This document shows, one piece after another, positions 1 through 45,692 of a DNA stretch of 46,040 bases. How positions within the stretch are numbered: the stretch's first letter is position 1; every line of letters begins with the position of its first letter. The notes beneath the pieces are model-generated. The model saw nothing but the letters and a program-made list of their open reading frames with translations, made no database searches and was not told the origin of the DNA. The position numbers were made by a program, and so were the translations under genes. The stretch is taken from positions 1 through 46,040 of the IMG/VR virus record IMGVR_UViG_3300035180_001716; one strand, 5' to 3'. Origin of the DNA: a virus.

Positions 1-2
1 AG

Positions 3-1472: not shown

Positions 1473-1482
1473 GAGGGATACA

Positions 1483-4492: not shown

Positions 4493-4734
4493 TCGCTTCA
4501 GCGGCAGCACGCCGGGCAATGCGACGGGCGAACCAGCGGATCATGGAGCGCGCGGCGGGCCGCCTGCCGTCGGTCATTCACACCGCAGCCGATCAGGTGT
4601 TTGAACGCCAAGCGAGCGGCCTGTCGAGCCTCACTGTTACGCCAGACACGTCACGCCTGCAGGACCCGACTACCGGCGCGTTCTACTTCCTCGCGGGTTA
4701 CTCGGCGGTTGGCGGGCCGGACATCCTGACATGA
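4489..4734 (+). CDS. Small tail-module protein, copy A
   Basis: An 81-aa protein with a basic helical N-terminus (Arg/Ala-rich, residues 1-30) and a Gly/Tyr-containing C-terminus. It is linked by ATGA overlaps to both the hub gene and the fibre gene. The copy B version (41149-41394) has the same length and differs at only a few positions near the C-terminus. I do not recognise the family. Its place between hub and fibre suggests a tail-tip connector or fibre-assembly role. Confidence 0.6.
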   Translation: MIASAAARRAMRRANQRIMERAAGRLPSVIHTAADQVFERQASGLSSLTVTPDTSRLQDPTTGAFYFLAGYSAVGGPDILT

Positions 4735-7628
4735 TCCTGCGGACGACCCGGGTGCGGACGCTGACGTTGACGGGGAGCTTCGATGGCTCCCTGTACTACA
4801 CCCTGCCGCCTCCGCCTCCGGGCATAGGCACGTTGCGACGGCCCACGGTCTCTGCGTCGTTCCCTGCGGCCAATGCCTCTGTTTGGGCAGAAGGCGTTCC
4901 TGGGCCACGGTCGGGCATTATGGTCAAAGCAACGGTCGGCACAACCACGAACTCGACGGACGACATCGTGCAGGTCGTGGCACCTTACACGCGGTCGATC
5001 GCTGGAACGTACACGATCTCTGTGCCAGTCGAGGAGGTCGTTGAACTCACGTTATCCTCCTGGGACGCAGACACGGGTTACCCTATCTGGACTGCGGACT
5101 TGTATGAGCGTACAGCGGTCGGAGGTATGGTCATTGCGTCGATAACTGCTGGTGGCCTCAGCATCAGTGCAACCGGCGCGGTTACGCAGGCAACGCGGAT
5201 CGGTGCCTATGGACCCGAGCTATCGGCAACAATGGACACGAGCCAGTCCGGCTCAACCACGTCGATCTCTGGGAGCATTGCAAACCTGCCACTCTGGCAC
5301 CCTGGATACACATACTCCGAGAGTGGGTGCACGGGCACGATCGCCGCTGGGTCTGTGAGCGCGACGACAGCAGATACGGGCGTTGTCACCGCCGACGGGA
5401 CAATGGCCGGGCAATGCGGCTGGAGCGTCAACGGGATCACGAAGGCATACGACGTGGACTACGTCGGGAACCTCGACCTGCTCATTGATCGCGATTCCGA
5501 CCATCTGCAAACACCCGTCACGGTCGGCGCCTCCTGGACGGACGGAGGCAGTCAGCATGAATACGCCGCCGCCGCCGTAACGATCAATGACGTCACGCAC
5601 AACATGGACACTGCCCAAAGCACCTTCCATCCGGTCAAGGTCCGACTGCGCGCGTCAGGTAGCACCTATAGCCTCGACACGCTCGGGGAGGATACTGCGG
5701 ACGTCTACGTACCATTCCGCTGCTGGCCGACTTTCAGCGCAGTCAGCGCGAAGAACTACGTATTCAGCTTCGATAACTGTTCGACGCTCACTCCCGGAGA
5801 CAACTTGGCTGGCCAGTGGTACGGGCTCGGTGGCGCGGTCCTCTCCATTGAGAACCAACAGATACGCATCGACACGGCGGCGACTGGTATGCAAGGCATC
5901 CGCAGGACGTTCACAAACCGTTGGGCGAACCTGTCTCAGGGGGTCATGGAGCTCGTCATGACGGGCCCCGCCGGGCCGGGCATAACCGTCACGCTCTATT
6001 CGCCGACCGGCGCGACGAAAACGTGGGCACACGATTGGAAAGGGCGGCCGATCGACCTCAGCCTCGGCTACCCGATCCTCGACCTGTGCAACCCGGACAG
6101 CGCGACTGCAGCGGTCGACACCTGGGACACTCGGTGGCCGCTCCCGACGGTCGATTCGGACTATTCGGGCGTCACGAGCTGCAATCAACTGGAGATCACG
6201 GGACTGCAGAACTCGCAAACGTACCATCTCCTCAATATGGAGGTTACATGGGCGAGCAAAACGAACGTTACCTGCATGGCGTCTCGGGCTGGGTGGGCCC
6301 TTGAGCAATCGGCGCAGATCAGCGAGGGCGTCAGCAGTGACACCTACGTCGTGCGTGGCATTCTCGGCATGTCGGACGGCAGGCAGTCGTTCGAAACTGC
6401 GCGCGCCGTCAAGACGGTCGTGCACAGCTCGGGCGGCGACACGACGTCGATTAGCGAGGTGCCCATCGATACCCTGCTTAGTCAGGATAACAACCCGCAG
6501 TTGGAGCCGTGGCCTGCCTATCCGGGCTGGACCATGACGGGCACGATCGTCACAGACCCCGCGGACGGTGGACTGCTCAGCGACTGGCTCAACACGAACC
6601 GGAGTATCGGATGGCTTCGCGGTGGTGGGTGGTCCTACGTTCCCGGCACGGGCTGGGTGGCTGGAACCGACATCCCCGCGGGCGCACCGTCGCAGACGGC
6701 AGACCTCTATGCTCAGGTCTGCGTTGACAGCATTTCGTTCTACCCGGGCTGCGGCGACGCGTTCTCATTCAGTTCGACGAACACGGGCGCATATGGGCCC
6801 ACGCTCTATTGTGCCGCGGCGGCGGTCCTGCGCGGAGGCGGGCATGGGCTCGTCTACGTAGGAGACCCGCGCGTGCCCGTCAACGCACAGACCGTAACGA
6901 ACACGGACACGGTCACGAACGACAGCGCTGGGACAGGCACGACGAACTCCATCGGCTGGTGGGAGAGTGGCACCCCGCTCGGACGGGGCGAGCGGTCCAT
7001 CAAGACCGCCTCAGGGGCGCAGTTCGCCTACACAACCTGGCACAATCGCAAGCGACAGCGGGTTGTCCTCTCGGTGGCGACGCCTGCCGCCTACCGCTGC
7101 GTCGAGTATGACCATCCGCGGAACTGGCTGCATGCGTCGGACGCGAAGAAGATCAAGACGGCCCACGCCTGGGACTTCGCCGCGCTCATGCGGAGCACCG
7201 ACTACCCGTACACGTGGATGAGGCTGCGCGCGAACCCGCATTATGGCTCACTGCTCATGCTGGGGATCACCCCGGCCTCCGCGCCGCCGTACACCTACCA
7301 TGTCTGCTATGGCAAAGACGGCGGTCTGACCACTCAGGAGCTATTTAGCATGACTGCAAACTCGGCGTTGATCGAGCACGACCTTGCCCGGGGCCTATGG
7401 GTGCTCCTATACGAGACCGGCGGGGCGATACAGCGGCGGACCTGTAGCGACGCTTCGGATATGAGCTCGTGGACGGCTGCGACGGCTCTGTCGATCTCGG
7501 GCACGCTTCTCGACTGTGCCTATGACCGCCGGTACGCGCGAATGGCGCTCGTTACGACGTCGGGGAGCGTGACAAAGGTCCTCTCGTCGAGCGACAGCGG
7601 CGAAACCTGGACAGAAAGGCTGGTGTAA
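4731..7628 (+). CDS. Large tail fibre / receptor-binding protein, copy A
   Basis: A 965-aa protein rich in Thr, Ser, Gly, Trp and Cys, with the composition of an adhesin. The N-terminal third (to about residue 330) differs greatly from copy B (998 aa, 41391-44387). From FRCWPTFSAV onward the two are closely similar. The last residues contain an Asp-box motif (SSDSGETWT), typical of BNR/sialidase-like beta-propellers. Large size, position after the hub, and the variable-head, conserved-tail pattern support a host-recognition fibre. It is unusual that the N-terminal, presumably virion-proximal, part is the variable one. Start is by ATGA overlap with the 81-aa gene. Confidence 0.65.
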   Translation: MILRTTRVRTLTLTGSFDGSLYYTLPPPPPGIGTLRRPTVSASFPAANASVWAEGVPGPRSGIMVKATVGTTTNSTDDIVQVVAPYTRSIAGTYTISVPVEEVVELTLSSWDADTGYPIWTADLYERTAVGGMVIASITAGGLSISATGAVTQATRIGAYGPELSATMDTSQSGSTTSISGSIANLPLWHPGYTYSESGCTGTIAAGSVSATTADTGVVTADGTMAGQCGWSVNGITKAYDVDYVGNLDLLIDRDSDHLQTPVTVGASWTDGGSQHEYAAAAVTINDVTHNMDTAQSTFHPVKVRLRASGSTYSLDTLGEDTADVYVPFRCWPTFSAVSAKNYVFSFDNCSTLTPGDNLAGQWYGLGGAVLSIENQQIRIDTAATGMQGIRRTFTNRWANLSQGVMELVMTGPAGPGITVTLYSPTGATKTWAHDWKGRPIDLSLGYPILDLCNPDSATAAVDTWDTRWPLPTVDSDYSGVTSCNQLEITGLQNSQTYHLLNMEVTWASKTNVTCMASRAGWALEQSAQISEGVSSDTYVVRGILGMSDGRQSFETARAVKTVVHSSGGDTTSISEVPIDTLLSQDNNPQLEPWPAYPGWTMTGTIVTDPADGGLLSDWLNTNRSIGWLRGGGWSYVPGTGWVAGTDIPAGAPSQTADLYAQVCVDSISFYPGCGDAFSFSSTNTGAYGPTLYCAAAAVLRGGGHGLVYVGDPRVPVNAQTVTNTDTVTNDSAGTGTTNSIGWWESGTPLGRGERSIKTASGAQFAYTTWHNRKRQRVVLSVATPAAYRCVEYDHPRNWLHASDAKKIKTAHAWDFAALMRSTDYPYTWMRLRANPHYGSLLMLGITPASAPPYTYHVCYGKDGGLTTQELFSMTANSALIEHDLARGLWVLLYETGGAIQRRTCSDASDMSSWTAATALSISGTLLDCAYDRRYARMALVTTSGSVTKVLSSSDSGETWTERLV

Positions 7629-7631
7629 CTC

Positions 7632-8384
7632 ATGGCGATAACTACTCTTGGCGGAACATTGCCGACCTCGGTGACGGCGGCGGGCGTCCGCAACTACTCG
7701 ACAGGTGACTCGGTCTCAGCGGCGGCCCTGCAGGCCGATCTCGGCGATGCCTACGCTCCGGCCATGTACTGCCTTCCGGCGGGGGTGGTGCTTGGGTTCG
7801 CCTGCACGGCCTCTGGTCTCGGCGTAACGATCCCGGCGGGATCTGTCTGGTACGCGCGGCAGGTCTGGCTCGTGACGACAGATACCGTGGTAACGGTGCC
7901 AGACAACGCGACGACCTACCTGTGGGGCTGCTCGGACGGCGTGATCAGACAGACATCGACGACCACTCCGCCGACGGGGTACTCGGCATACACGGCGGCG
8001 ATTGTCGCGCAGGTCTCTGCTTCGGGCGGCGTGGCGACCGTTGCTGCCTACAAACAGTGGGCGATGGGGAGCTCAATCGTTGCCGTCCCGGGCGGTCTGA
8101 CGTCGATCACCGGGGCCCTCCCGGATGCCGACTATACGGTACTCCCGGCACAGTACGCCGGAGAGGTGATCCTCGCGGCGCATTCCGGATGGACAGCGAC
8201 GCACAACCTCGTCATGCCGCTCGCGGCAGGCATGCGCCGGTGGATAGTCAACACGTGCGGGCAGTCGGTCGTCGTCAAAGGGGCAACGGGCACCGGCCCG
8301 ACGATCGCGACGGCGCGCGCGGCCTGCGTCGTCTGTGACGGAACGAACTGGATGCGCCTTACCGCGGATTCGCTCTTGACATAG
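7632..8384 (+). CDS. Tail fibre/tip protein, copy A
   Basis: A 250-aa protein, Thr/Ala/Gly/Val-rich, no membrane segment, probably a trimeric fibre or tip subunit. It starts three bases after the stop of the large fibre gene, with an AAGG-type SD inside that gene. It is strongly conserved in copy B (44391-45143, same length). Its 3' end contains the -35 box of the next promoter (8376-8404), so the coding sequence and the promoter overlap. The C-terminal CDGTNWMRLT segment resembles the ends of many short phage fibre proteins. Role inferred from context and composition. Confidence 0.6.
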   Translation: MAITTLGGTLPTSVTAAGVRNYSTGDSVSAAALQADLGDAYAPAMYCLPAGVVLGFACTASGLGVTIPAGSVWYARQVWLVTTDTVVTVPDNATTYLWGCSDGVIRQTSTTTPPTGYSAYTAAIVAQVSASGGVATVAAYKQWAMGSSIVAVPGGLTSITGALPDADYTVLPAQYAGEVILAAHSGWTATHNLVMPLAAGMRRWIVNTCGQSVVVKGATGTGPTIATARAACVVCDGTNWMRLTADSLLT

Positions 8385-8404
8385 ACGCGCGTACGGCGTA
8401 CAAT
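8376..8404 (+). promoter_or_regulatory. Near-consensus sigma70 promoter for lysis/appendage operon, copy A
   Basis: TTGACA (8376-8381), a 17-base spacer, then TACAAT (8399-8404): one mismatch from consensus. It drives the genes from 8560 on. The -35 lies inside the end of the preceding tip gene. The equivalent at 45135-45163 keeps both hexamers and the spacing while the spacer changes. Confidence 0.85.
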
Positions 8405-8420
8405 GATTGCAACAGCATAT

Positions 8421-8479
8421 AGGCGGCTTTGCGAAGCCCGTTTCCGGCTCAGACGATCCGGGGCGGGCTTCTATCGCCT
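8421..8479 (+). ncRNA. Structured leader with 17-base hairpin element, copy A
   Basis: About 10 bases after the expected transcription start lies GGCGGCTTTGCGAAGCC (8422-8438), which folds as GGCTT-TGCG-AAGCC. The overlapping AAGCCCG (8434-8440) can instead pair perfectly with CGGGCTT (8464-8470), and AGGCG (8421-8425) with CGCCT (8475-8479), so two mutually exclusive folds exist. The 17-mer is identical at 26474-26490 and 45181-45197, each just downstream of a promoter. An antitermination or attenuation element is the likeliest role. Confidence 0.65.
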
Positions 8480-8535
8480 GTGATACCCGCCGTGAGTGCA
8501 CCGGCGTTTGGACCTGACAGCGCGAACGTCCATAA

Positions 8536-8552
8536 CTCCCGCGACGGGGGAG
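8536..8552 (+). promoter_or_regulatory. Hairpin that can mask the ribosome-binding site of the lysis operon
   Basis: CTCCC (8536-8540) is complementary to GGGAG (8548-8552), which is part of the SD for the ATG at 8560. The sequence is identical in copy B (before 45319), so the leader is conserved although non-coding. A role in timing translation is inferred. Confidence 0.4.
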
Positions 8553-8559
8553 GCGCAGG

Positions 8560-8931
8560 ATGACCATTGGAGGAATGTGTCCATTGGCAGGCGACATGCA
8601 GCTTTGTGACCAGGTGATCACACTCGGCAAGGCAGTGCCGGGTCTCATCGAGACGATCAATGCAAATGGCGTGATGCTGGCGCGGATCGAGGAGAAGGTC
8701 AGCGCGTTGCCCGAGATCGCGCGCGGACAGCACGAGGCGGCGCAGCGTCTGGCCGCGCTAGAGGAGCACCTGCGCGCGGCCGAGGCGCGCATCAGCTCGC
8801 TGGAGAAACAACAGGAGGATTCCCGCCGGTTCCTCATCTCGGCCATGTTTGCCGCCGTCATGGGGTTCGTGACGGGGATACTCGGTTTGGCCATGCGCGA
8901 GGGCCATTGGCTCGCGACAGGAGGCAAATGA
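8560..8931 (+). CDS. Coiled-coil, tail-anchored membrane protein (XhlA-like), copy A
   Basis: A 123-aa protein with a long amphipathic coiled coil (about residues 35-85, heptads rich in Glu, Ala and Leu) followed by one C-terminal transmembrane helix (about 92-112, FLISAMFAAVMGFVTGILGL). This layout matches small phage lysis-associated proteins of the XhlA type, and it sits before the amidase and holin genes. A second in-frame ATG at 8575 has its own GGAGGA and could be used. Copy B (45319-45669) is the same to the membrane helix, then ends differently and shorter (116 aa). A role in lysis is inferred from topology and neighbours. Confidence 0.55.
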   Translation: MTIGGMCPLAGDMQLCDQVITLGKAVPGLIETINANGVMLARIEEKVSALPEIARGQHEAAQRLAALEEHLRAAEARISSLEKQQEDSRRFLISAMFAAVMGFVTGILGLAMREGHWLATGGK

Positions 8932-9362
8932 TGGGCACCACTCAGCTCGACATCACTCAGCTCGCGGCAAAAGTCGACGAGATCGTCAAGAAGCTCGCGA
9001 CCATCGCACCGCGGCACTGGAAGGGTAACTGTCCGCCGGACCAGCACCATTTCGACGCCGGGAGCATTCAGGCCGACGCGTCGCTCGACGCAAGCGCGAA
9101 AACGGTAACGATCAGCTTCGAGTTTACCGACCGCGGATCGCCCCACGAGGTAGCGGCGATGATGCGATGGGATCAGATCGGCATTCGAGGTGGTGCGGAC
9201 GTCGTGGCCGTTGACGGCGTCCAGCTCTCTAACGCTGACTGCGTGATCGGGCACCGCGAGGGGCTGGAGGGTCTGCACTGGTACGCGCGCATCGTCTGCG
9301 AGTTCCGCGGCAATCTCCCCACTGGCGCGCCCGTGCACTACCGCTTCGACGGAGACCTCTAA
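8931..9362 (+). CDS. Hypothetical virion or lysis-operon protein, copy A
   Basis: A 143-aa protein with a helical N-terminus (residues 1-25) and a beta-rich remainder containing HWKGNCPPDQHHFDAG and two cysteines. Of two adjacent in-frame ATGs (8928 and 8931) I take the second, because copy B (from 45693) has only that one; the SD is GGAGG. The stop TAA shares a base with the amidase start. No recognised domain. Position suggests a structural or lysis-accessory protein. Confidence 0.55.
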   Translation: MGTTQLDITQLAAKVDEIVKKLATIAPRHWKGNCPPDQHHFDAGSIQADASLDASAKTVTISFEFTDRGSPHEVAAMMRWDQIGIRGGADVVAVDGVQLSNADCVIGHREGLEGLHWYARIVCEFRGNLPTGAPVHYRFDGDL

Positions 9363-15216: not shown

Positions 15217-15303
15217 CGTCCTTCTCCTCCGCTGCGCTCCGGTCACGGTAGCGTCTTGTGCGGGGTTTGCCTCATCAGCATGGGGGGAACCGCCTCCCCG
15301 TGG

Positions 15304-15321
15304 ACCGGCCTGGAGGCCGGT
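15304..15321. terminator. Small GC-rich hairpin after first leftward gene
   Basis: ACCGGCC (15304-15310) and GGCCGGT (15315-15321) form a seven-bp stem with a four-base loop between two leftward genes. There is no U-run on the leftward transcript; possible weak attenuator. Confidence 0.35.
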
Positions 15322-15330
15322 TTCGGCAGA

Positions 15331-18431: not shown

Positions 18432-19237
18432 TGACAGTGACGAACACGGCGGTGGCGACGGTGAATGTCAACAAGCCGGTCGGAAACGACCTGCGGACCC
18501 TCGCACAGTATCTGGAGGCGCGCAAGGCCGACATCGCGCAGGCGGCGGCCCGGCACGTCTCTGCTGACCGTCTCGCGCGGGTAGTGCTCAACTGCGTCGC
18601 GCGGACGCCGGCCCTGCGCAACTGCACGATGGTAAGCATCTATCGCTCGGCGATGATGGCCGCCGAGCTGGGGCTGGACCCCGGGAGCGCGCTGGGCGAA
18701 TGCTACCTGCTCCCCTACAAGGATCAGTGCCAGTTGATCGTGGGCTACCGGGGGCTGATCACTCTCGCCCGCCGGAGTGGCGAGGTCGAGACCGTGCAGG
18801 CATTCGTGGTATACGAGGGGGACGAATTCGATGTGCGCCTTGGGACGCATCCGGAGATCGTCCATAACCCGCGTTACGACGGTGACCGCGACCCATCGAA
18901 GGTCAGGTACGTCTATGCCGTGGCCAAATTGCGCGGGACGGACACGCCGATGTTTGACGTGATGACCCGGTCGGAGATCGAGGCAATCCGCAAGCGGAGC
19001 AAGTCGGGCGCGGCGGGGCCTTGGGAGACGGACTGGGCCGAGATGGCGCGCAAGACGGTCGTCCGCCGCCTGGCTAAATACCTGCCGATGAGCGTCGAGA
19101 TGGCCAAGGCCGTCTCGCTCGACGCCGGGGAGGGCGAGACCTACACGCCGGCGGTGCTGGAGGGTGACGTCGATCCCGCGACGGGCGAGGTGATCGAGGC
19201 CGCGCCGGAGGCTAACGGCAAGGAGGGCGGGCGATGA
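18428..19237 (+). CDS. recT: RecT single-strand annealing protein
   Basis: A 269-aa RecT-family annealase that pairs complementary single strands after end resection. Recognisable features are the SIYRSAMMAAELGLDP segment near 74, the GECYLLPYKDQCQLIVGYRG core near 95, and the WETDWAEMARKTVVRRLAKY helix near 200, all typical of phage RecT. The C-terminus is acidic and Gly/Ala-rich, which is usual. Coupled to the upstream exonuclease and downstream small membrane gene by overlaps. Confidence 0.92.
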   Translation: MMTVTNTAVATVNVNKPVGNDLRTLAQYLEARKADIAQAAARHVSADRLARVVLNCVARTPALRNCTMVSIYRSAMMAAELGLDPGSALGECYLLPYKDQCQLIVGYRGLITLARRSGEVETVQAFVVYEGDEFDVRLGTHPEIVHNPRYDGDRDPSKVRYVYAVAKLRGTDTPMFDVMTRSEIEAIRKRSKSGAAGPWETDWAEMARKTVVRRLAKYLPMSVEMAKAVSLDAGEGETYTPAVLEGDVDPATGEVIEAAPEANGKEGGR

Positions 19238-19437
19238 CTGACCGGTACCGAGTCGCGGGTCTTTACATGAAGGCGTTGTGCGCCTGCGTCGGGATGATCT
19301 GCCTCGCCTGGGTGCTCACTGCGTTCGCGCGCAAGCCAGATCCCGGCCCGCAGGTCGTGACAGTGACCGTGACGCGCCCACAGGACATTGCCCCGACGCT
19401 GAAACAGCTTTTGCCGCCGCTGGAAGTGGCGAGATGA
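19234..19437 (+). CDS. Small single-pass membrane protein
   Basis: A 67-aa protein with one N-terminal transmembrane helix (about residues 10-30, Cys-containing) and a Pro-rich soluble tail. It overlaps recT by ATGA. Not recognised; it could anchor something at the membrane during early infection. Confidence 0.5.
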   Translation: MTDRYRVAGLYMKALCACVGMICLAWVLTAFARKPDPGPQVVTVTVTRPQDIAPTLKQLLPPLEVAR

Positions 19438-19629
19438 CGCGCCGCGAATGGAGTCGCGGGGAGAGGAGGGACAAAGACCGACCATCCTAGAGCAGTAGGC
19501 AGCCAGCGCGGCGTCGTTCCGGGGGGAAGCGGCAAAACCCGCGCTGGTGACGAGGACAAACCGCCCATGTGTCGACGTACCAACCGACCTCGACGGGGCA
19601 CTGTGAGGCGCGAGTAGGAGGAGGAGACG
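19438..19629 (+). other. 192-base non-coding gap with hairpin
   Basis: The gap holds CCAGCGCGG (19503-19511) and CCGCGCTGG (19539-19547), a perfect nine-bp stem around a 27-base loop with an inner TTCC/GGAA pair. Two mini-frames exist (18 codons from 19434, overlapping the previous stop, and 16 codons from 19567), neither convincing. It ends with a strong GGAGGAGGAG for the next gene. Confidence 0.45.
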
Positions 19630-19857
19630 ATGGCGAACATGGTCGAATGGAGGGAGACGGCGGACATGCTACCGCCAGAGGGCAGACGCGTCCTGGCAAC
19701 GGCAGAGGATGCGGACGGACTGCGTTGCAACGTCGTCGCGTTTCTCCTGGATGGCGAGTGGTATCTAGACGCTGGGCGCCGCGTAGGTGCGCAGGTAGCG
19801 GCATGGGCCGACCAACCGACGCCGTGGACCGGCGCGAGGCGAGGAGCGCGATCATGA
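19630..19857 (+). CDS. DUF551-like small protein (1 of 3)
   Basis: A 75-aa protein with the DUF551 outline: W near residue 6, a LPPEG turn, an RVLAT strand, a GEWYLDAG strand and a final VAAWADQPTPW. Two further members are encoded at 21248 and 21462. The family is common in phages and has no known function. SD AGGAGGAGG. Overlaps the next gene by ATGA. Confidence 0.65.
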   Translation: MANMVEWRETADMLPPEGRRVLATAEDADGLRCNVVAFLLDGEWYLDAGRRVGAQVAAWADQPTPWTGARRGARS

Positions 19858-20273
19858 AACCCGGCGATCTGGTGGTCCACACGCGCCTCGGCCTGCGCGG
19901 CAGGGTCGTGGCAGTCCGCACGGAGCCGCGCGTCACGAACACGATCACAATGCAGGCCGAGGACGCGACGATGGTGACCGTTGGGATGCCCTGGCGCGGT
20001 GAATGGGACGTCTGGGCCGATGATCTGGAGCCTGCCGATCCTGCGACGTGGAACGTCGAGAACACGCCGACGACGGCGCGCATTGGGAGCACCGTGAAAC
20101 ATGTCGCGACAGGCCTGCTGGGGCGCGTTACCGGTGCGATGCGGAAGACGCGCAGGATCGGCGAGAAGGACCTGCCGTTCGAGGTGCTCGCGGTGCAACC
20201 CCTGCCAAACCAGACGACGCTCTGGTGGACGGACGAGGTTGAGGTGCAGGACAAACCGGGAGGCGCCTTATGA
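19854..20273 (+). CDS. Tandem SH3/KOW-like small protein
   Basis: A 139-aa protein with two related segments, GDLVVHTRLGLRGRVVAVR (about residues 4-22) and GSTVKHVATGLLGRVTGAM (about 75-93), each resembling the first strands of a small SH3/KOW-like barrel. The next two genes carry single copies of the same motif. The ATG at 19854 overlaps the previous stop. Likely an RNA- or protein-binding module; function unknown. Confidence 0.5.
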   Translation: MKPGDLVVHTRLGLRGRVVAVRTEPRVTNTITMQAEDATMVTVGMPWRGEWDVWADDLEPADPATWNVENTPTTARIGSTVKHVATGLLGRVTGAMRKTRRIGEKDLPFEVLAVQPLPNQTTLWWTDEVEVQDKPGGAL

Positions 20274-20488
20274 AACCGGACATACGGATCGGTGACGTCG
20301 TGCGACATCGCGGCACGTGGCTACGGGGCCGCGTAAAGCAGGTCGTTCAGACTGAGCGGGATACGTCTAATGGCGTCGAACCGTGCGTAGTCGTCTATGT
20401 CTGTCTCGAACCGGATCAATGGATGCACTGGCACTACAACGAGATCGACCGCATTGGACGGGAGATAGACGACGATGCGGGTCGGTGA
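20270..20488 (+). CDS. Single SH3/KOW-like small protein
   Basis: A 72-aa protein containing one IRIGDVVRHRGTWLRGRVKQ motif, related to both halves of the preceding protein. A WMHWHYNEIDRI segment follows. Overlaps neighbours at both ends. Function unknown. Confidence 0.5.
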   Translation: MKPDIRIGDVVRHRGTWLRGRVKQVVQTERDTSNGVEPCVVVYVCLEPDQWMHWHYNEIDRIGREIDDDAGR

Positions 20489-20657
20489 CAGGATTCGGCG
20501 GCGAGCAGATGGAGCGACGGGCACGATAGTCTGCATCGTCGAGGCGGAGGATTACACCGTGGCGGTAGCGAGGCTAGACAGAGGTGGGTTCATCTCGTTC
20601 CTGGGCGAGGAGAACTGCGACGCCGAGGAGGAGGACGGAGGCAATGATGGCGTCTGA
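20475..20657 (+). CDS. Single SH3/KOW-like small protein with acidic tail
   Basis: A 60-aa protein with VGDRIRRRADGATGTIVCI (the same motif as its two upstream neighbours) and an acidic C-terminus. Its last part, GGFISFLGEENCDA, recurs at the C-terminus of the next gene product, encoded by an identical 35-base DNA segment. It starts within the previous gene and ends within the next. Confidence 0.5.
   Translation: MRVGDRIRRRADGATGTIVCIVEAEDYTVAVARLDRGGFISFLGEENCDAEEEDGGNDGV
20586..20620 (+). repeat. 35-base direct repeat, first copy
   Basis: These 35 bases are identical to 21187-21221 and encode the end of GGFISFLGEENCD in the same frame of each gene. Beyond them the similarity fades. Confidence 0.85.
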
Positions 20658-21255
20658 GTTGGATGATCTCTCAATAGCGCGTTCACGGGAGGACGCGCAA
20701 ATGGCGAGGGCCCATAATGCATTGCTGGACCAGTGGTACGAAAACCGAGGAGAGTCATATGCGTCCATTGCTCTTGACGTCGATCGATTCTGCTCGGCAA
20801 TGGGGTATCCGCGGGCTGACAATGGCGCCTTCGGGCGTAGCAGTCTGCAGGAGGCCGCGCGAATATTGAGGGCCCTGATCTCCTGTGAGATACGCATAAC
20901 CCTCGTTATGAGGGGACAGGAACGCGCCGGGCAGGACGGCGTGCGACGTCTGCGTGGCCCAGTGTGGGACTACCTGCTGAAAGAGGAAAACGATGCATAT
21001 GAGGGTGCGGGCGATGACGCTTCGGCATGGTCCCTCGTGGCCCTCACCTATGCGCCCGGCGCGTGGTATTTCTACCCAATATGGCGGCAACACAACGATG
21101 CAGGAGGCGATACCAGAATCACCATGATGCGCTTCGATCCCATTCGAGACGGCTGGTTTGAAGCGACGGTGAGAATGGACGGCGGCGGGTTCATCTCGTT
21201 CCTGGGCGAGGAGAACTGCGATGCCGCGGAGAACGGAGGAGAGGACGATGTCTAA
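20644..21255 (+). CDS. Hypothetical protein sharing its C-terminus with the upstream gene
   Basis: A 203-aa protein beginning with a helical N-terminus (about residues 1-80, ARSREDAQMARAHNALLDQW). The middle contains WSLVALTYAPGAWYFYPIW, and the C-terminus GGFISFLGEENCDA is shared with the product of 20475-20657. Start is the first of two adjacent ATGs overlapping the previous stop. No family recognised. The shared end suggests duplication of the 3' segment rather than full-gene paralogy. Confidence 0.5.
   Translation: MMASELDDLSIARSREDAQMARAHNALLDQWYENRGESYASIALDVDRFCSAMGYPRADNGAFGRSSLQEAARILRALISCEIRITLVMRGQERAGQDGVRRLRGPVWDYLLKEENDAYEGAGDDASAWSLVALTYAPGAWYFYPIWRQHNDAGGDTRITMMRFDPIRDGWFEATVRMDGGGFISFLGEENCDAAENGGEDDV
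21187..21221 (+). repeat. 35-base direct repeat, second copy
   Basis: Identical to 20586-20620. It lies 601 bases downstream, in the same reading phase relative to its gene. Confidence 0.85.
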
Positions 21256-21469
21256 ACGGATTTGGCACCCCTGCAGCGAATGCCTGCCGGAGACCCACGG
21301 ACGCGTGCTGGTGACAATTGAGCGCCGCGGGCAGCGGTTCGTCGCGATGGCGGCGTACATCAGTGGCCAGTGGTATCTCGACGGGTTTGAGCGACTGACC
21401 GCGCGCGTGCTGGCGTGGGCGGAGCAGCCGGAGCCGTGGGACGGAGAGGCGGGGGAGTGTGATGCCTGA
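21248..21469 (+). CDS. DUF551-like small protein (2 of 3)
   Basis: A 73-aa protein with W near residue 5, CLPETHGRVLVTIE, a SGQWYLDGFE strand and VLAWAEQPEPWDGEA. It is closely similar to the next gene product in the second half. The ATG overlaps the previous stop by eight bases. Function of the family is unknown. Confidence 0.65.
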   Translation: MSKRIWHPCSECLPETHGRVLVTIERRGQRFVAMAAYISGQWYLDGFERLTARVLAWAEQPEPWDGEAGECDA

Positions 21470-21671
21470 ACTGACATGGAACAGGAGCGCAGATCGGCTA
21501 CCGGATAACCCGGGAATGAAACTCGTGACTGTTCATGGCGACCAGTCGGGCCGGTTCGTGATTCACGCGGCCTATATCGACGGGTTCTGGTACAGCGACT
21601 CCTTCGAGCCATTCGAGCTCCCGATCATTGCATGGGCGGATTGGCCCGAGCCATGGGACGGAGAGGCGTAG
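21462..21671 (+). CDS. DUF551-like small protein (3 of 3)
   Basis: A 69-aa protein with the same outline: TWNRSADRLPDNPG, a DGFWYSDSFEPF strand and IIAWADWPEPWDGEA. GTG at 21459 is an alternative start; ATG at 21462 has GGGGGAG upstream. It ends the first part of the early operon, and a new promoter follows within ten bases. Confidence 0.65.
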   Translation: MPELTWNRSADRLPDNPGMKLVTVHGDQSGRFVIHAAYIDGFWYSDSFEPFELPIIAWADWPEPWDGEA

Positions 21672-21678
21672 ATCGGCG

Positions 21679-21707
21679 TTGACATTCGGCCCGCCATGCG
21701 TTACAAT
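21679..21707 (+). promoter_or_regulatory. Near-consensus sigma70 promoter for primase operon
   Basis: TTGACA (21679-21684), a 17-base spacer, TACAAT (21702-21707). Same hexamers and spacing as the promoter at 8376. It drives a leader of about 150 bases before the primase-helicase. Confidence 0.85.
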
Positions 21708-21726
21708 GTGATCGACAACCAGAGGC

Positions 21727-21843
21727 GTTGGCAGCGCTAGGACACACAGGATAGCTGGCCCTAGAGAGGGCCTGGATTCGCCGACCTCGACCTGTGCGGG
21801 GACTGCCAACCAGGCGTACCAGGTTCTCTCCAGGGCCAGTTTT
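21727..21843 (+). ncRNA. Structured leader / attenuator-like RNA before primase
   Basis: Three pairings can be read by eye. GTTGGCAG (21727-21734) pairs with CTGCCAAC (21803-21810). GGCCCT-AGAG-AGGGCC (21757-21772) is a perfect local hairpin. The 14 bases at 21755-21768 pair with 21826-21839 with one mismatch, directly followed by TTTT (21840-21843), like an intrinsic terminator. The last two are mutually exclusive. The layout is that of an attenuator or antiterminator upstream of the SD AGGGAGG. Confidence 0.6.
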
Positions 21844-21862
21844 GCGTTTCAGGGAGGTATAG

Positions 21863-24061
21863 ATGCCTTCGCTAGTCCAGATCGACCGTATTCGCGATGC
21901 TCTCAGGTGTGACAGGCCCGGTTGTAGTTGCCGATCCCCCCGCGGGTCCGTTCACTGTCCGGCGCACGACGACGGATCGCCCAGCTTGAGCGTCACTGAG
22001 CGCGATGGAAAAATCCTCGTCCATTGCCATGCAGGATGCTCGCAGGAGGCGGTGGTGGCCGCGCTCCAGGCCCGCGGGCTCTGGCCGGAGAAACCGGCGG
22101 AGCGGCCCAGCACGAATGGGCACAAACCGCCCCAGCACGACTACGGCCATGACGTTCCCCCGCAGGTCGTCTACGACTACACCGACGCACACGGCCAACT
22201 CCTCTATCAGGTCCTCCGATACCCGCCTCTCCCCAACGGCAAGAAAGTGTTCAAGCAGAGGCGACCCGCAGCGAACGGCGGATGGACATGGAACCTGACC
22301 GGCGTGGAGCGCGTCCCCTACCGCCTGCCGGAGGTCGTGGCGCGGGCGCGCGAGGGCAAGACGGTGCTCGTCGTCGAGGGCGAGAAGGACGTCGACAACC
22401 TTCGGCGATTGGGCTGCGTGGCTACGTGCAACTCTGGCGGTGCTGGCAAGTGGTTGGACGAGTATGCGCAGTACCTGCGCGGGGCCTCCGTGATCATCCT
22501 GCCCGACAACGACGAGCCAGGCGAGGAACATGCGCAGGAGGTCGCGCGATCCTTGTACGGTGTGGCGCGGATAGTACGCGTCGTGCACCTGCCGAACCTT
22601 CTCCCGAAGGGGGACGTTTCGGATTGGATCGAGTCCGGCGGCACGCTTGCCGAGCTCGTTCGACTGGCTAAGGAGGCGCCGGCTTGGGTGCCGGTTCAGA
22701 CGGAGGAGACCGAGGTACGCCGGGCGACGGACACGGGCAATGCCGAACGCCTCGCGGCATGGCACGGCCACGAGCTGCGGTACTCCTACGACCGGCAGGC
22801 ATGGTACGTCTGGACCGGCACGCATTGGGAGCAAGATGACGCGCGGGTCCAGCAGATCGCGAAGGCAACCGTGATGGCCATTCACGATGAGGTCTCGGCC
22901 TGCAGGACCAAGTCGGAGCGCGAGGAGTTGTCCAAACACGCCATTTCCTCGGAATCGAACGCGAAACGTAGCGCGATGCTGGCGCTTGCGCAGTCCGAGC
23001 CGGGCATACCGGTGCGGATGCAGGATTTCGACACCGACCCGTGGCTCCTCAACTGCGCCAATGGCGTGGTGGACCTGCGCACGGGTGAGCTGCTGACGCA
23101 CAAGTCTGAGCGGCTCCTGACGCGTCTCTGCGGGGTCGAGTACGACCCCTGCGAGGAGTGCCCGTACTGGGAGCAGTTCCTCGCGACGATCATTCCCGAC
23201 GCCGAGACCCGCGCCTACGTTCAACGCGCCGTCGGCTACTCGCTGACAGGTCTGACGGACGAGCGCGTGATGTTCATCCTGCACGGCGTAGGCAGGAACG
23301 GCAAGACGACGTTCATCGAAACTGTCGCCAACCTAGTCGGAACCTACGCAGTCCGTACGCCGACGTCGACGCTGATGGTCAAACAGCAAGGAACGATTCC
23401 CAACGACATTGCCCGGCTCGCCGGGGCCCGGTACGTCTACGCCTCGGAGGCTGAGGACGGTCAACGTCTCGCCGAGAGCATGGTAAAGAGCCTGACAGGG
23501 GGCGACACGATAAGCGCCCGGTTCCTGCATGGCGAGTGGTTCGATTTCAAGCCGGTTTTCAAAATCTGGCTCGCGACGAACCACAAACCCAGGGTACGCG
23601 GCACCGACCAGGCGATATGGGACCGCCTGCCGTTGATTCCGTTCACCGTGCGCATCCCGGACGACGCGTTGATTCCCCGGCGCGAGATCGACCGGCGATT
23701 CGAGGTCGAGGCGCGCGGCATTCTGTCATGGGCGGTCGAGGGATGCCTGCGCTGGCAGCGGGAGGGCCTCGGCGCACCGCCGCAGGTCCGCGAGGCGACG
23801 TCCGCTTACCGTGAGGACATGGACCCGTTGAAGGAGTTCCTCGACGACCGATGTGTGATCTCGGGCGAGTACACCTGCGGATCGACGGAGCTCTACACGG
23901 CGTACGCCGAATGGGCCCGCATCTGCGGCGAACGCGCGGTGAACCACAAGGACTTCAGCCGCCGGCTCGCTGAGCGCGGTTTCTCCTCCGTGAGGGGCAA
24001 ACATGGAATGCGGTGGCAAGGGATCGGATTGCTCGACAGGGATAATCCTGGGTTGGTGTAG
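21863..24061 (+). CDS. Primase-helicase (TOPRIM primase plus D5/P4-type SF3 helicase)
   Basis: A 732-aa replication protein. The N-terminus has a zinc-binding CPAHDD...CHAGC segment (about residues 34-58). A TOPRIM core follows (VLVVEGEKDVDNL near 172, ILPDNDEPGEE near 213). A D5_N domain lies near 400-440. The SF3 helicase has Walker A HGVGRNGKTTFIET near 475, Walker B-like RYVYASEAEDGQ near 520 and the sensor KIWLATNHKP near 570. It primes and unwinds DNA, with a host polymerase needed since none is encoded here. Last codons overlap the inverted-repeat region downstream. Confidence 0.92.
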   Translation: MPSLVQIDRIRDALRCDRPGCSCRSPRGSVHCPAHDDGSPSLSVTERDGKILVHCHAGCSQEAVVAALQARGLWPEKPAERPSTNGHKPPQHDYGHDVPPQVVYDYTDAHGQLLYQVLRYPPLPNGKKVFKQRRPAANGGWTWNLTGVERVPYRLPEVVARAREGKTVLVVEGEKDVDNLRRLGCVATCNSGGAGKWLDEYAQYLRGASVIILPDNDEPGEEHAQEVARSLYGVARIVRVVHLPNLLPKGDVSDWIESGGTLAELVRLAKEAPAWVPVQTEETEVRRATDTGNAERLAAWHGHELRYSYDRQAWYVWTGTHWEQDDARVQQIAKATVMAIHDEVSACRTKSEREELSKHAISSESNAKRSAMLALAQSEPGIPVRMQDFDTDPWLLNCANGVVDLRTGELLTHKSERLLTRLCGVEYDPCEECPYWEQFLATIIPDAETRAYVQRAVGYSLTGLTDERVMFILHGVGRNGKTTFIETVANLVGTYAVRTPTSTLMVKQQGTIPNDIARLAGARYVYASEAEDGQRLAESMVKSLTGGDTISARFLHGEWFDFKPVFKIWLATNHKPRVRGTDQAIWDRLPLIPFTVRIPDDALIPRREIDRRFEVEARGILSWAVEGCLRWQREGLGAPPQVREATSAYREDMDPLKEFLDDRCVISGEYTCGSTELYTAYAEWARICGERAVNHKDFSRRLAERGFSSVRGKHGMRWQGIGLLDRDNPGLV

Positions 24062-24160
24062 GGTGTAGGAAGGGTGTACCTGTTTTTAGGTTTTTTACTA
24101 TATGAGTCACAAGCTCAAAATAAGGCAAAAATAGGTACTCCCTTCATACACCCTACACCC
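24061..24160. repeat. AT-rich inverted repeat; candidate replication origin
   Basis: GGGTGTA occurs at 24061-24067 and 24072-24078, and in inverted form (TACACCC) at 24147-24153 and 24154-24160. GGGTGTAGG at 24061-24069 is perfectly mirrored at 24152-24160. Inner arms AAGGGtGTACCTgTTTTT (from 24070) and its mirror (24128-24145) match with two differences. The roughly 40-base core is very AT-rich. Position right after the primase-helicase suggests an origin with protein-binding sites; a bidirectional terminator is the alternative. Confidence 0.55.
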
Positions 24161-24290
24161 TGCATTTGAGATCAGCTAGCGATGATAATCGCCTTCGAGA
24201 GACGTTCGCTGATTCGAGGTATGCCCGAACCTTAAGAAACTCTAAGGTTGCTGAGTAGCGCGCGTTGCAAATCATTCGAGGTAGATAACG
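24161..24290 (+). other. Non-coding stretch with short direct repeats
   Basis: CGATGATAATC occurs at 24180-24190 and again at 24289-24299, the second spanning the start of the next gene; ATTCGAGGTA is repeated at about 24213 and 24278. A 17-codon frame from 24182 begins with the same MII residues as the next gene and may be a remnant. A small hairpin CCTTA/TAAGG lies between. Confidence 0.4.
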
Positions 24291-24530
24291 ATGATAATCA
24301 CCTTCAATGCCGATTGCCGCATTTTGGGAGACGTCGACCCATTCAAGATCGCGATACGGATCATGGAGCACATTCCGCCTGTGATCTACTCGGGCGAGGC
24401 CGATAACTGGGAGGCATGGGTGCAGAACGTCGAGACCGTAAGCATTGAGAACGACGCAGAGACACAGGCCGCGGGCGTGACTTCAAGCGCGAATGCCCCA
24501 TGCTCGCGCTACGTGACACGGAGAGAATAG
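24291..24530 (+). CDS. Hypothetical small acidic protein
   Basis: A 79-aa protein with a MIITFNADC start, a RIMEHIPPVIYSGEADNWEAW centre and a polar tail. The SD GAGGT is moderate. No family recognised. Its GC content is lower than that of neighbouring genes, as is the gap before it. Confidence 0.45.
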   Translation: MIITFNADCRILGDVDPFKIAIRIMEHIPPVIYSGEADNWEAWVQNVETVSIENDAETQAAGVTSSANAPCSRYVTRRE

Positions 24531-24623
24531 ATATGGTCGAAGGGTAGTAAGGAACGCAGAACAGGCGGTTTGCGGCGTTCTTCGGGCATTGTGGATCGAT
24601 TCTGCAGGAGGAGGAGAGGAACG

Positions 24624-25025
24624 ATGAAGTCATTCCGGAAGTGCCAGACGAACAATGAGATCAGGGAGCTGATGGGCAACCCTCGCAGCGTGCGCATTCT
24701 GCAGCGGACGGACTCGGGGTTCGCGGCGCAGAAACGGATACTGATGGGCATGACGCCGGAGGTGCTGGGGATCATCGTCTCATTGGGCAGTAACTGGGAC
24801 CACGTCAGCGTGAGCCTCCGAGACCGCCCTCCGACCTGGCTGGAGATGGATGCCGTGCGGAACGCGATCTGGGAGCCGGACGAAACGGTTTTGCAGTATC
24901 ACCCGTCCCACAATCAGGCGCGAATCAACCCGTACTGCCTGCACCTCTGGCGACCGCAGGACGGCCCGCTGCCACTGCCGAACTACGAGGCGTACGGGCT
25001 CGCCCAAACGGAGGAGGTGAAATGA
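24624..25025 (+). CDS. DUF7694-like phage protein
   Basis: A 133-aa protein. The second half has the characteristic WDHVSVSLRDRPPTWLEMD, then WEPDETVLQYHPSHN and NPYCLHLWRPQDGPLPLP, a pattern I associate with the phage family DUF7694 (function unknown). The ATG at 24624 has GGAGGAGGAGAGG just upstream; earlier in-frame ATG at 24570 lacks it. Overlaps the nuclease gene by ATGA. Confidence 0.7.
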   Translation: MKSFRKCQTNNEIRELMGNPRSVRILQRTDSGFAAQKRILMGMTPEVLGIIVSLGSNWDHVSVSLRDRPPTWLEMDAVRNAIWEPDETVLQYHPSHNQARINPYCLHLWRPQDGPLPLPNYEAYGLAQTEEVK

Positions 25026-25513
25026 TCACCGGCGCGCCGACATGCTGCGGGGCCGAGATGCGCCCGCTACGGTTGCCAACTGCGGCCCGGACTCGCGTCG
25101 GCTGGATCTGTCTCGCCTGCGGTCGAAAGGTTTGGGATGAACCTGCGCTGATGCGCGGCGGAAGGGCCCGGCGCACGAACCCGGAGGCCGCCGTCGTTGC
25201 GGCGACGAAGCAGGCGTTGGGCTACGCCGGGTTCGAATCCCTGCGCGTCGGTCAACACCGGGCTGATCTGTCGGGCTCAGACCCCGGCATGGTCGACCTG
25301 CCCGTTCACATAGCCGGTCCGCTCTGGTGTTTCGTCGAGATAAAGGCGCCCGGCAAGGCGAAACCGGGTGGCTGCACGCCGGAGCAGAGGCGGATGTTAT
25401 CGTTGGGGCACATCGTAGTGTCCGACGACCCGGAGCGCGTTGTGAGGATCGCCCGGCGGTTACGCGAGCTGCTGGAGCCGATCAAGGCGGAGATCGAGGA
25501 GGCTGCGGGATGA
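25022..25513 (+). CDS. VRR-NUC nuclease with N-terminal zinc ribbon
   Basis: A 163-aa protein. CC and CLACG cysteines (residues 8-9 and about 31-35) suggest a zinc ribbon. The VRR-NUC core follows: a GMVDLPV strand near 88 (in place of the usual GxPD), FVEIKAPGKAKPGG near 105 with the catalytic E-x-K, then TPEQRRMLSLGHIVV near 120. Enzymes of this family cut branched or single-stranded DNA. A role in replication or recombination intermediates is inferred. Coupled to genes on both sides. Confidence 0.8.
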   Translation: MITGAPTCCGAEMRPLRLPTAARTRVGWICLACGRKVWDEPALMRGGRARRTNPEAAVVAATKQALGYAGFESLRVGQHRADLSGSDPGMVDLPVHIAGPLWCFVEIKAPGKAKPGGCTPEQRRMLSLGHIVVSDDPERVVRIARRLRELLEPIKAEIEEAAG

Positions 25514-26193
25514 ACCAGGAGGAGGCGTGGGCGAAATGCCCTGTCGAGATGGCGAACATGGCGCTGCGAATCGCCCGCGAATACGGGTATGCGTGGCAGT
25601 GGTCCCCGGCAGTGCCGCAGGACGAGGCGGAATGGGCCGAAGGCGACCCGAGGCCGAGCCTGGCCGAGATCGAGGCGACGACCCCGGAGGCGATCATAGA
25701 GACGCGCCTGGACGACATTGAGTTCGAGTTCGCCGATGGCCGTTACTGTTTGCACTACCTGGTCCCGACTGGGCATACTGAGCTCTGGATGCGCGCTACT
25801 CCGGATGGAGAACACATTCAGCGCGAGGTCATCATCCGGCGCGATAACGGAGACATGGTGCGCGGCGTCATCGAAGGCGGCGACACGCATGTTGAGGCCG
25901 ATCTATCCGGATGGAACTTCAGACACGAGGACCAGTGGGCGCGCGCGTGGGAAACCTTCGGCATTGAGCCGCCGCCATTCCCTGGCGAGCTCACCGGATC
26001 GAGGCTCGTCTACGGCAAGTGCGAGTGGCCAGATGATCTATCGACCCTGAACTACGCTACGATCTACGTCCCGGAGTGGGCCATAATACCGGCTGAGCAC
26101 CTTCGGGTGATGCTTGACCGCGCTGACAGCGTTATACTGTGCGACAAGGAGCTCAATCAGTACCCGATAGCGTTCGTCGAGCATAGGTGGTGA
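25510..26193 (+). CDS. Hypothetical protein, paralogue of 14198-14875
   Basis: A 227-aa protein that aligns along its whole length with the leftward gene product at 14198-14875: the shared N-terminal W..CP/MP...AN.ALRIAREY, E..TPE, VIEGG, RAWE..GIEPPPFPGE and a C-terminal LDRADSV motif. Start fixed by overlap with the VRR-NUC stop. No known domain. The paralogue pair in two operons suggests an accessory function duplicated and moved. Confidence 0.6.
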   Translation: MNQEEAWAKCPVEMANMALRIAREYGYAWQWSPAVPQDEAEWAEGDPRPSLAEIEATTPEAIIETRLDDIEFEFADGRYCLHYLVPTGHTELWMRATPDGEHIQREVIIRRDNGDMVRGVIEGGDTHVEADLSGWNFRHEDQWARAWETFGIEPPPFPGELTGSRLVYGKCEWPDDLSTLNYATIYVPEWAIIPAEHLRVMLDRADSVILCDKELNQYPIAFVEHRW

Positions 26194-36569: not shown

Positions 36570-38126
36570 ATGAACGACGAGCAACTAGGGCGACTGCTCA
36601 TCAACGTAGCGATACAGGATGAGGGCACGACCAAGGCCCTTGATGACGTCGGGCAGGCGTCCGCTCGCCTCAAGAAACAGGCGGACCCGGCGGAGCAGTC
36701 AACGAAGGACCTGGGCGCGTCGATCACGTCGATCAAACTTCCTGCCGTGCAGGCGATGGGCGTCGTCAACACGCTCGCGTCCAGCATTGGCATGCTCGGC
36801 GCGGCGGCGGCGTCGTTCGCCGGTGTCCGCCTCGCGGCCCAGTACGAGCGGATCGAGATCGGCTTCAAGTCCATCCTCGGCTCCGCGCAGGCGGCCCACA
36901 AGATCATGCGTGAACTGAGGCAGATGGGCACAGAGACGCCGTACCGGACCGAGGCGCTCATCGGCTACGCGCGGGGCCTCGCCGCGGTAACTCACGATGG
37001 CGACAAGGCGGTGGCGACCCTACGAACGCTCGCGGCAGTCGGCTCGGCGCAGGGCTGGGGCGAGGCGGACGTCGGAGACGTGGCGCGTACGCTCGCCTCG
37101 CTCGGCTCGTCGTTCCGTCCGGCAGGGCAGGACACGATCATGTCGCTCGCCGCGAAGGGGATCGACATCGCTCGGGTGGCGAAGGCCGCCGGGCTAGGCG
37201 ACTTCGGGACCGGCCCTTATGCTACTGCGCGGGCGTCTATGGCGTTTGGGGCGCTGCAGGGCCCGAGAGCGATGGAGCTACTGATCAAGGGCATGGAGAA
37301 AATCTACCCGGCGACGATGAGCTTCCTAGGGGTGATCCAGAACCTGGGCGAGTCATTGGCGCAGATCATGCTCCCAACGGGCCAGATGCTCATACCTGTG
37401 CTCGGCGCAATCGCGCGGGCGGTGACCTGGGCGGCGCAGCGTCTGCATGACCTCAACGAGTATCTCGGCGGTACGGCGGGTTTCGTGTTCATTCTGGCTG
37501 GGATCATAAGGATAGGGCCATCGTTGATCGCCAGTCTGCAAGGGGCGTACGCCGGCCTGGTGCGCCTGAACATGCAACTGCGAATGCTGGCCGGCACATC
37601 GACCGCAGCAGCAATAGCAGGCGGCGGGGCCGCCGCGTCGAGTGCAGGGGCCGCGCTCGGCTGGGGCGCTTTGGGCAAGGGCGGGTTCAATGCGATGAAG
37701 GGCCTGCTCGCAGGGGGCGGTCTAAGGGTCGCTCTCATGGGCATAGCGCGCGCGTTCCTTCCACTCGCCATAGGTATGGGCGGAGAGCTCCTAGCGTCTG
37801 ATAAGCAGGGCAAAGGGTATTCCGCGATGAACATCGCCGGGCGCGCTCTTGAGGCTGGGGCGATGGGGTTCATGGTCGGTGGCCCATGGGGGGCAGCGAT
37901 CGGCGCGGCGCTCGGGGCAGGCTACGGCATCTGGGAGAACTACCAGCCAAAACCGGAGGACGACGCGGCCAAACAGACCGCGGAGAATACGAAGCGCACC
38001 GCAGACGCCATGGACCAGCTACGCATGCAGGTCATCGGGGGCGGCGTTCGAACGCGCCGCGGGGCATCGGACATCGAGGCTCAAATCAACCTGAGCAGGG
38101 CAATGGCGACCCTATCCGGGGTCTAG
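36570..38126 (+). CDS. Tape measure protein, copy B (complete)
   Basis: A 518-aa tape measure protein, complete in this copy. Residues 1-60 are polar with a short coiled coil; a conserved AAQYERIEIGFKSILGSAQA near 90 is typical of phage tail tape measures; residues 300-460 are hydrophobic and Ala/Gly-rich; the end is charged. Length equals copy A although the middle differs strongly. It follows the frameshifted chaperone with GAGTGAGA upstream of the ATG. Confidence 0.8.
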   Translation: MNDEQLGRLLINVAIQDEGTTKALDDVGQASARLKKQADPAEQSTKDLGASITSIKLPAVQAMGVVNTLASSIGMLGAAAASFAGVRLAAQYERIEIGFKSILGSAQAAHKIMRELRQMGTETPYRTEALIGYARGLAAVTHDGDKAVATLRTLAAVGSAQGWGEADVGDVARTLASLGSSFRPAGQDTIMSLAAKGIDIARVAKAAGLGDFGTGPYATARASMAFGALQGPRAMELLIKGMEKIYPATMSFLGVIQNLGESLAQIMLPTGQMLIPVLGAIARAVTWAAQRLHDLNEYLGGTAGFVFILAGIIRIGPSLIASLQGAYAGLVRLNMQLRMLAGTSTAAAIAGGGAAASSAGAALGWGALGKGGFNAMKGLLAGGGLRVALMGIARAFLPLAIGMGGELLASDKQGKGYSAMNIAGRALEAGAMGFMVGGPWGAAIGAALGAGYGIWENYQPKPEDDAAKQTAENTKRTADAMDQLRMQVIGGGVRTRRGASDIEAQINLSRAMATLSGV

Positions 38127-38136
38127 GAGGGATACA

Positions 38137-38655
38137 ATGGCTATTCAAAGCGTTACCTACCGTGGCAAACTGGACGTGGTCGAGGTACCGAGCGGGGCGG
38201 CCATCGCGCCGACCTCGGTCGTGAACCACACGTTGTTCTCGGGCGGCGTTACCGTCGGGCGCGACGACGTCTATGGGCCGACCACTACGCCGGCCTGCAA
38301 TGCCGTTGCCGACTTTCAGCAGGCCCTTTCGTCTGGGGCAGCGACGATCGACCTGACTGCCCTGCCATCGTTCGGCGGCGCAACGCAGTCGTTCAACGGG
38401 AAGAAGGTTGTCGCGGCTAAGTTCCGCAACCCAAGCACGAACGCGAACAGTATCACCATTGCTCAGGGCGGGACGAACCCCTATGGCCTGCTGGGTACGA
38501 CGTTCTCCATCACGCTGCAGCCAGGGCAGGAGATTCTGTTCGGCCCGCAGGCGGCCGTCACTGCGTCGACACCCGCAGTGAGCTCGACGGTGAAGACCAT
38601 CGCGCTCACGGGCACGGGCAGCCAGGCGCTCGACGTTCTGCTGGTCGCCGGCTAG
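38137..38655 (+). CDS. Beta-rich tail structural protein, copy B
   Basis: A 172-aa counterpart of 1483-2001, nearly identical, with the same SD embedded after the tape measure stop (TAGGAGGG). Its stop TAG overlaps the stop of the antisense membrane gene (CTAG, palindromic). Role as for copy A: virion protein of unknown exact function. Confidence 0.7.
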   Translation: MAIQSVTYRGKLDVVEVPSGAAIAPTSVVNHTLFSGGVTVGRDDVYGPTTTPACNAVADFQQALSSGAATIDLTALPSFGGATQSFNGKKVVAAKFRNPSTNANSITIAQGGTNPYGLLGTTFSITLQPGQEILFGPQAAVTASTPAVSSTVKTIALTGTGSQALDVLLVAG

Positions 38656-38840
38656 GGTTTTGGATCGTCCGTGGGGTCGACGTCGCGTCGCAGTCGTCTG
38701 AGATACGATCCCACGGTGATCGCAAAGCCGGTGAGGAACATCATGCGCGGAGTAAGCGCACCGAAAACGAAGAGACACACCCAGAACACCGCGAGAATGT
38801 TCAGGTCGACGAGTAGGTCGGCAGCAGTGTAGCGTGGCAT
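38652..38840 (-). CDS. Small two-helix membrane protein on the antisense strand, copy B
   Basis: A 62-aa protein starting MPRYT, with hydrophobic helices (about residues 11-29, with VFWVCLFVFGAL, and 33-46) and a charged RRLRRDVD tail. Same orientation, start signal and stop overlap as at 1998-2180, but the protein is diverged except for the start, DL, a central Pro, VGS and the Arg pair. Because the flanking genes barely differ, the gene is either replaced as a cassette or evolves very fast. Confidence 0.65.
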   Translation of the reverse strand: MPRYTAADLLVDLNILAVFWVCLFVFGALTPRMMFLTGFAITVGSYLRRLRRDVDPTDDPKP

Positions 38841-38851
38841 AGGAGCCTCCT
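38841..38851. promoter_or_regulatory. Palindromic ribosome-binding site serving both strands, copy B
   Basis: The same AGGAGCCTCCT palindrome as 2181-2191, between the ATG at 38840 (minus) and GTG at 38852 (plus). Conserved while the antisense gene itself is diverged. Confidence 0.8.
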
Positions 38852-44387: not shown

Positions 44388-44390
44388 CTC

Positions 44391-45163: not shown

Positions 45164-45179
45164 GACTGCAACAGCATAC

Positions 45180-45669: not shown

Positions 45670-45692
45670 ATCGCGGCAGGAGGAGGCAAACG

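Follow-up and report, generated by a model that had tools for sequence, protein, structure and literature searches.

The leader ahead of the primase-helicase gene of this phage very probably serves as an RNA switch that turns the start of DNA replication on or off, and on balance its sequence leads us to favour a transcription attenuator of the replication-initiator gene. The window, meaning the whole 46,040-nt stretch that was analysed, is a tailed-phage contig in which terminase, portal, major head protein and endolysin were recognised and which also encodes RecT and a YqaJ exonuclease. The features on which the argument turns are as follows.

21679 to 21707, plus strand: near-consensus sigma-70-type promoter, TTGACA-17 nt-TACAAT, directly upstream of the leader.
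21727 to 21810, plus strand: closed domain of 84 nt in the fold of 21714-21812, made of P1 (21727-21734 with 21803-21810), P2 (21745-21750 with 21791-21796) and the P3 hairpin (21757-21772).
21755 to 21775, plus strand: switching strand CTGGCCCTAGAGAGGGCCTGG, P3 plus its flanks; predicted to serve as the terminator's 5' arm or as an antisense segment.
21819 to 21839, plus strand: target strand CCAGGTTCTCTCCAGGGCCAG, predicted 3' arm of the terminator, with an alternative hairpin of its own at 21822-21837.
21840 to 21843, plus strand: T run after the terminator arm, TTTT here; three relatives have a T-rich stretch, for example TTTTTGTTTGTCTGTTTGTTTT.
21851 to 21857, plus strand: Shine-Dalgarno sequence AGGGAGG, invariant in relatives.
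21863 to 24061, plus strand: primase-helicase gene (D5_N + DUF5906), 732 aa, the putative controlled gene.
24055 to 24159, plus strand: iteron inverted repeat around an AT-rich core, directly 3' of the primase gene, with 42-nt arms and GGGTGTA iterons.

Three promoters of the TTGACA-17-TACAAT type occur in the window, against none expected by chance. The hexamers of the one ahead of the leader are kept in seven relatives, and the spacer between the hexamers varies; L005 has TATAAT. Judged from the position of the -10 element, transcription would start at about 21714, giving a leader of roughly 150 nt. The other two consensus promoters (segments 8376-8559 and 45135-45319) each stand ahead of a possibly structured leader, in which GAAGCCCG is able to pair locally or with a downstream CGGGCTTC; the first of these leaders precedes a holin-like gene, and its folding is no better than that of shuffles (z = -0.64).

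The earlier note on this DNA had described a perfect local hairpin, an eight-base-pair helix around it and a 14-bp long-range pairing, and all three are exact. The hairpin at 21757-21772 reads GGCCCT-AGAG-AGGGCC; it is enclosed by the perfect match of GTTGGCAG (21727-21734) with CTGCCAAC (21803-21810); and 21755-21768 pairs with 21826-21839 with a single mismatch (21763 A vs 21831 C), followed by TTTT at 21840-21843. The long pairing had, however, been under-called: it actually spans 21755-21775 and 21819-21839, where 20 of the 21 positions pair (18 Watson-Crick and two G-U, with one A.C mismatch), and its arms reach 23 nt (21753-21775 with 21819-21841) when the end pairs are counted. A third helix that the note had lacked, P2 (CACAGG/CCTGTG), lies inside P1.

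RNA up to 21812 folds as P1-P2-P3, and the complete leader folds as the long duplex, at -63.3 kcal/mol; with P1, P2, P3 and the target hairpin all retained, the best energy is -48.7 kcal/mol. Since the terminator stem uses the bases of P3 and crosses both P1 and P2, the two folds are mutually exclusive. When prefixes were folded at every fifth base, the minimum-energy structure changed over between 21827 and 21832, ahead of the U run. The best inverted repeat of the leader is one of the two strongest in the window and scores 18.4, beyond the maximum of 15.3 among 2000 dinucleotide shuffles; with the exclusive folds, this bears out the original observation of competing folds that end in a terminator-like hairpin. 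The leader thus combines two features expected of an attenuator: a stable hairpin that leads into a U run (a short one in the window, a longer one in three relatives) and a mutually exclusive alternative fold. The folding of the whole leader is unusual to a lesser degree (z = -2.24, with 5 of 200 shuffles equally good), and the 99-nt upstream domain (21714-21812) taken alone is no more stable than shuffles (z = -0.69), so that support for this domain comes from conservation and not from energy.

If the leader is a transcription attenuator, RNA begun near 21714 would first fold into the P1-P2-P3 domain. Once made, 21819-21839 would pair with P3 and its flanks, producing a 21-position duplex followed by U's and breaking P1-P3; the incoming strand would presumably pair first with the free UGG at 21773-21775, displacing P3 as the polymerase reaches the U run. 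The default would then be termination near 21843, with little primase-helicase produced, and read-through would follow when some factor preserves P1-P3 or masks one of the two strands. With a T run this short (TTTTGCGTTT) and a terminator loop of 43 nt, intrinsic termination may be inefficient. Processive antiterminator RNAs of the HK022 put kind need no 21-position complement ending in a U run, and this leader has one; although it is likewise a promoter-proximal structured RNA of a phage operon, we therefore think it highly improbable that it works by binding RNA polymerase as put does and not as a terminator switch. The put RNA is reported to act from the nascent leader (PMC9378689).

The leader also stands out by its conservation. 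It is present, whole or in part, in eight closely related contigs; the leader of L001 is identical, and L002 begins inside the leader. A ranking by conservation of the 113-nt windows to which four or more distinct contigs contribute, 18,771 in number, puts 21723-21835 first, at 97.9% vs a mean of 89.0% (sd 4.5%); with 80-nt windows the leader ranks second. Over 118 nt of leader the strains differ at 0-7 positions, and strains with distinct primases differ at 20-32% of primase fourfold-degenerate sites; L003, L006 and L007 are identical over these 118 nt, with 20-31% of their fourfold sites differing. The promoter spacer and both flanks of the leader are variable and the leader itself nearly constant, a pattern that argues strongly for purifying selection on it. 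Protein coding was considered and rejected as the cause: an N-terminal extension is open in five relatives, in-frame stops occur in the window, and seven of the eight substitutions fall at codon positions 1-2. On these sequence grounds the leader is non-coding.

All 20 base pairs of the closed domain are invariant in the relatives. The variable bases are four in the 5' joining strand (all in L004), 21753, 21776 and two in the terminator arm. The target strand occurs in two haplotypes, both able to pair; in the second, carried by three relatives, the A.C mismatch becomes A-U and a G-C pair becomes G.U, so both terminator-arm changes give standard pairs, and the same three relatives carry the longer T-rich tail. 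No compensatory changes were found in any switch helix across these relatives, where almost nothing varies, and with so little variation covariation speaks neither for nor against the pairings. Substitutions are fewer in helices (2/70) than outside them (6/43), a difference that is suggestive only (p = 0.052).

The same pattern bears on two other explanations. One is that the P1-P3 domain serves as an antiterminator when a bound protein or metabolite keeps it folded, as happens in classical attenuators and riboswitches. The invariant helices, the invariant 3' joining strands (21797-21802 and 21811-21818) and the presence of a complete alternative fold would suit it; however, on the 5' side of the P1/P2 internal loop 4 of 10 positions are changed in L004, with the helices unchanged, and the conservation fits antisense pairing as well as a binding pocket. 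An Infernal search against Rfam, which the earlier note had suggested, gave no match at gathering scores or with E values up to 10, apart from chance hits to miRNA hairpins at the leader. We consider this explanation rather doubtful. It follows that of the phrase 'attenuators and riboswitches' the first half stands, given the competing folds and the strong selection on the leader, and the second is not supported, given the Rfam result and the loop that varies in L004.

The other explanation is that the conserved stretch is a DNA element, made of repressor operators or roadblock sites, and that its palindromes give rise to the RNA pairings only incidentally. Both P3 and the target do form 16-bp imperfect palindromes, alike at 13 of 16 positions in inverted orientation. 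Yet neither has a third copy at two or fewer mismatches in the window, the sites would lie some 45-125 bp inside the transcript, P1 and P2 would be left unexplained, and the change at 21836 breaks the DNA symmetry while keeping an RNA G.U pair. We regard a DNA element as unlikely.

Attenuation, our preferred reading, need not act only in cis. Trans action is conceivable because the domain is a closed unit of about 84 nt whose sole good complement lies just downstream, and we may conjecture that, like P4 CI RNA, terminated or processed leader also targets other molecules of the same transcript, so that replication would be under negative feedback. A fuller version of this idea is that the leader is chiefly a trans-acting antisense RNA in the style of P4 CI and P1/P7 C4: the P1-closed domain would be excised, for example by RNase P, and pair with 21819-21839 of new transcripts, stopping expression of the replication genes and so providing copy control or superinfection immunity. 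There is published precedent in P4, where the CI RNA, derived from the leader, pairs with seqA and seqC and brings about premature termination of the replication genes (PMC4825925); C4 RNA is closed by P1, processed by RNase P and carries its antisense segments in inner hairpins (PMC5320573). The window leader has this plan and size, with an antisense hairpin arm and a target shortly downstream, before the replication genes. ACCA (21809-21812) continues from the 3' strand of P1, an arrangement that resembles RNase P substrates by analogy and is a lead, not proof of processing.

As a control, the P4 region was put through the same procedures. Rfam calls CI as C4 (RF01695, 74.9 bits, E 1e-14) and reports isrK as well, with the c4-a1b1 upstream target listed just below its gathering score, and a repeat scan picks out P1 as well as a hairpin arm, GGCAGCCTCC, whose complement GGAGGCTGCC lies no more than about 120 nt further downstream. 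In the window, 21600-21900 has no match to RF01695 in cmscan at E up to 10. P1 closes 84 nt (about 80 in C4) and is invariant, and the downstream complement on the same transcript, 21819-21839, begins 8 nt past the end of the closed domain. No second, upstream target like seqA or the c4-a1b1 sites was found, the switching strand having no other complement with six or fewer mismatches anywhere in the window, and only about 13 nt of transcript precede P1. The domain has one strong inner hairpin (P3) and one weak, short one (UGG-loop-CCG), both inside the extra helix P2. Against trans action it also counts that a cis copy would outcompete a trans copy unless the RNA were processed, and that no integrase or repressor was found among the proteins searched, which leaves lysogeny unproven. 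An antisense RNA of this kind is a possibility that we take seriously without preferring it, and we advance only tentatively the more specific proposal that the leader is a second, independently evolved C4/CI-type RNA, terminating primase-helicase transcription in a clade unrelated to P4 as a means of copy control or immunity.

The inverted repeat at 24055-24159, which belongs to the context and not to the leader, is probably the replication origin; SaPI origins, too, lie just downstream of the helicase gene, where they are bound by the helicase C-terminal domain (PMC7581432). Inverted iteron arms with an AT-rich core also follow the D5 primase gene in L002-L008, L121, L141, L209 and others, and of 88 non-redundant D5-primase loci, 50 have a strong inverted repeat immediately downstream but only 1 has one upstream; the iteron sequences vary from locus to locus. 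Members of the clade have either GGGTGTA or GCATGTA as the iteron, and the primase C-terminus changes accordingly, from NHKDFSR..RGKHGMRWQ to THREFSR..RGMRGMRWH (N/T, K/R, D/E, KH/MR and Q/H within residues ~690-732), the two groups being L005, L007 and L008 vs L002, L003, L004 and L006. It is possible, from this joint switching, that the C-terminal domain reads the iteron, as if by a specificity code.

Two further observations concern the window as a whole. Its ends (1-9278 vs 36655-46040) are 86-89% identical over most of their length. The window may contain a genuine duplication of the tail module, or else it may be a chimera of two strains that was over-circularised; in a related contig, 3300035180_001524, each end carries RecT pieces, which suggests a circular map of about 37-38 kb. 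On the minus strand, 15261-15328 is a type II hammerhead ribozyme above the Rfam gathering score (42 bits, E 2.5e-5), surrounded by genes of unknown function.

Homologues were sought by three primase scans of viral contigs, terminase and RecT scans, a genome scan, three DNA-pattern scans and HMM scans of the fetched loci. These found the leader only in one phage clade, whose primases are at least 93% identical, and BLASTN of the leader against phage records gave no match. Distant primases (at most ~51% identity in the best segment) mostly lie in tight operons or have no promoter match, and upstream of them no comparable structure was found, chance-level exceptions aside. Occurrence in a single clade limits both the comparative evidence and any claim of generality.

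P4 is the textbook case of RNA-level control of phage replication genes, and to our knowledge few others are known to be controlled in this way. That a leader unrelated to it in sequence shares its plan, next to what is probably an iteron origin, would point to RNA attenuation having evolved more than once in D5-type initiators, and the leader is a small element suited to reporter testing.

Compared with classical attenuators and transcriptional riboswitches, the leader shares the two exclusive folds, of which the second to form is a hairpin with U's after it, but it has no known aptamer in Rfam, and the part expected to be transcribed shows no leader peptide (the GTG at 21708 precedes the inferred start). 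With the attenuation of rep mRNA by antisense RNA in pT181-type plasmids it would share the placement of attenuation ahead of a replication initiator gene; antisense-promoter control like that of pT181 was itself rejected, a simple consensus scan having found no minus-strand promoter-like site in 19000-26000. Like the C4 RNA of P1 and P7, the domain is closed by P1 and holds its putative antisense segment in an inner hairpin (PMC5320573); C4, however, blocks translation of ant mRNA, whereas the target here precedes a U run and leaves the Shine-Dalgarno sequence uncovered. With P4 CI the likenesses are a leader of a replication operon with a primase-helicase, a closed domain of about 85 nt (84 nt here vs 87 positions in the model), a hairpin arm whose complement lies some 100 nt further on, ahead of the replication genes, and termination, documented in P4 (PMC4825925) and proposed here, as the output. 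The differences are that the window leader matches P4 neither in sequence nor by model, its P1 has 8 bp instead of 17, it adds P2 and lacks the upstream target, and its target is followed by a U run upstream of the Shine-Dalgarno sequence, while the P4 target precedes the cI ORF, with several genes between it and alpha. For want of a C4 model match and of a second upstream target, and given the extra helix, we describe the leader as C4/CI-like in layout and do not file it as a member. The earlier note named no class; the closest known logic is that of the P4 CI and P1 C4 antisense RNAs.
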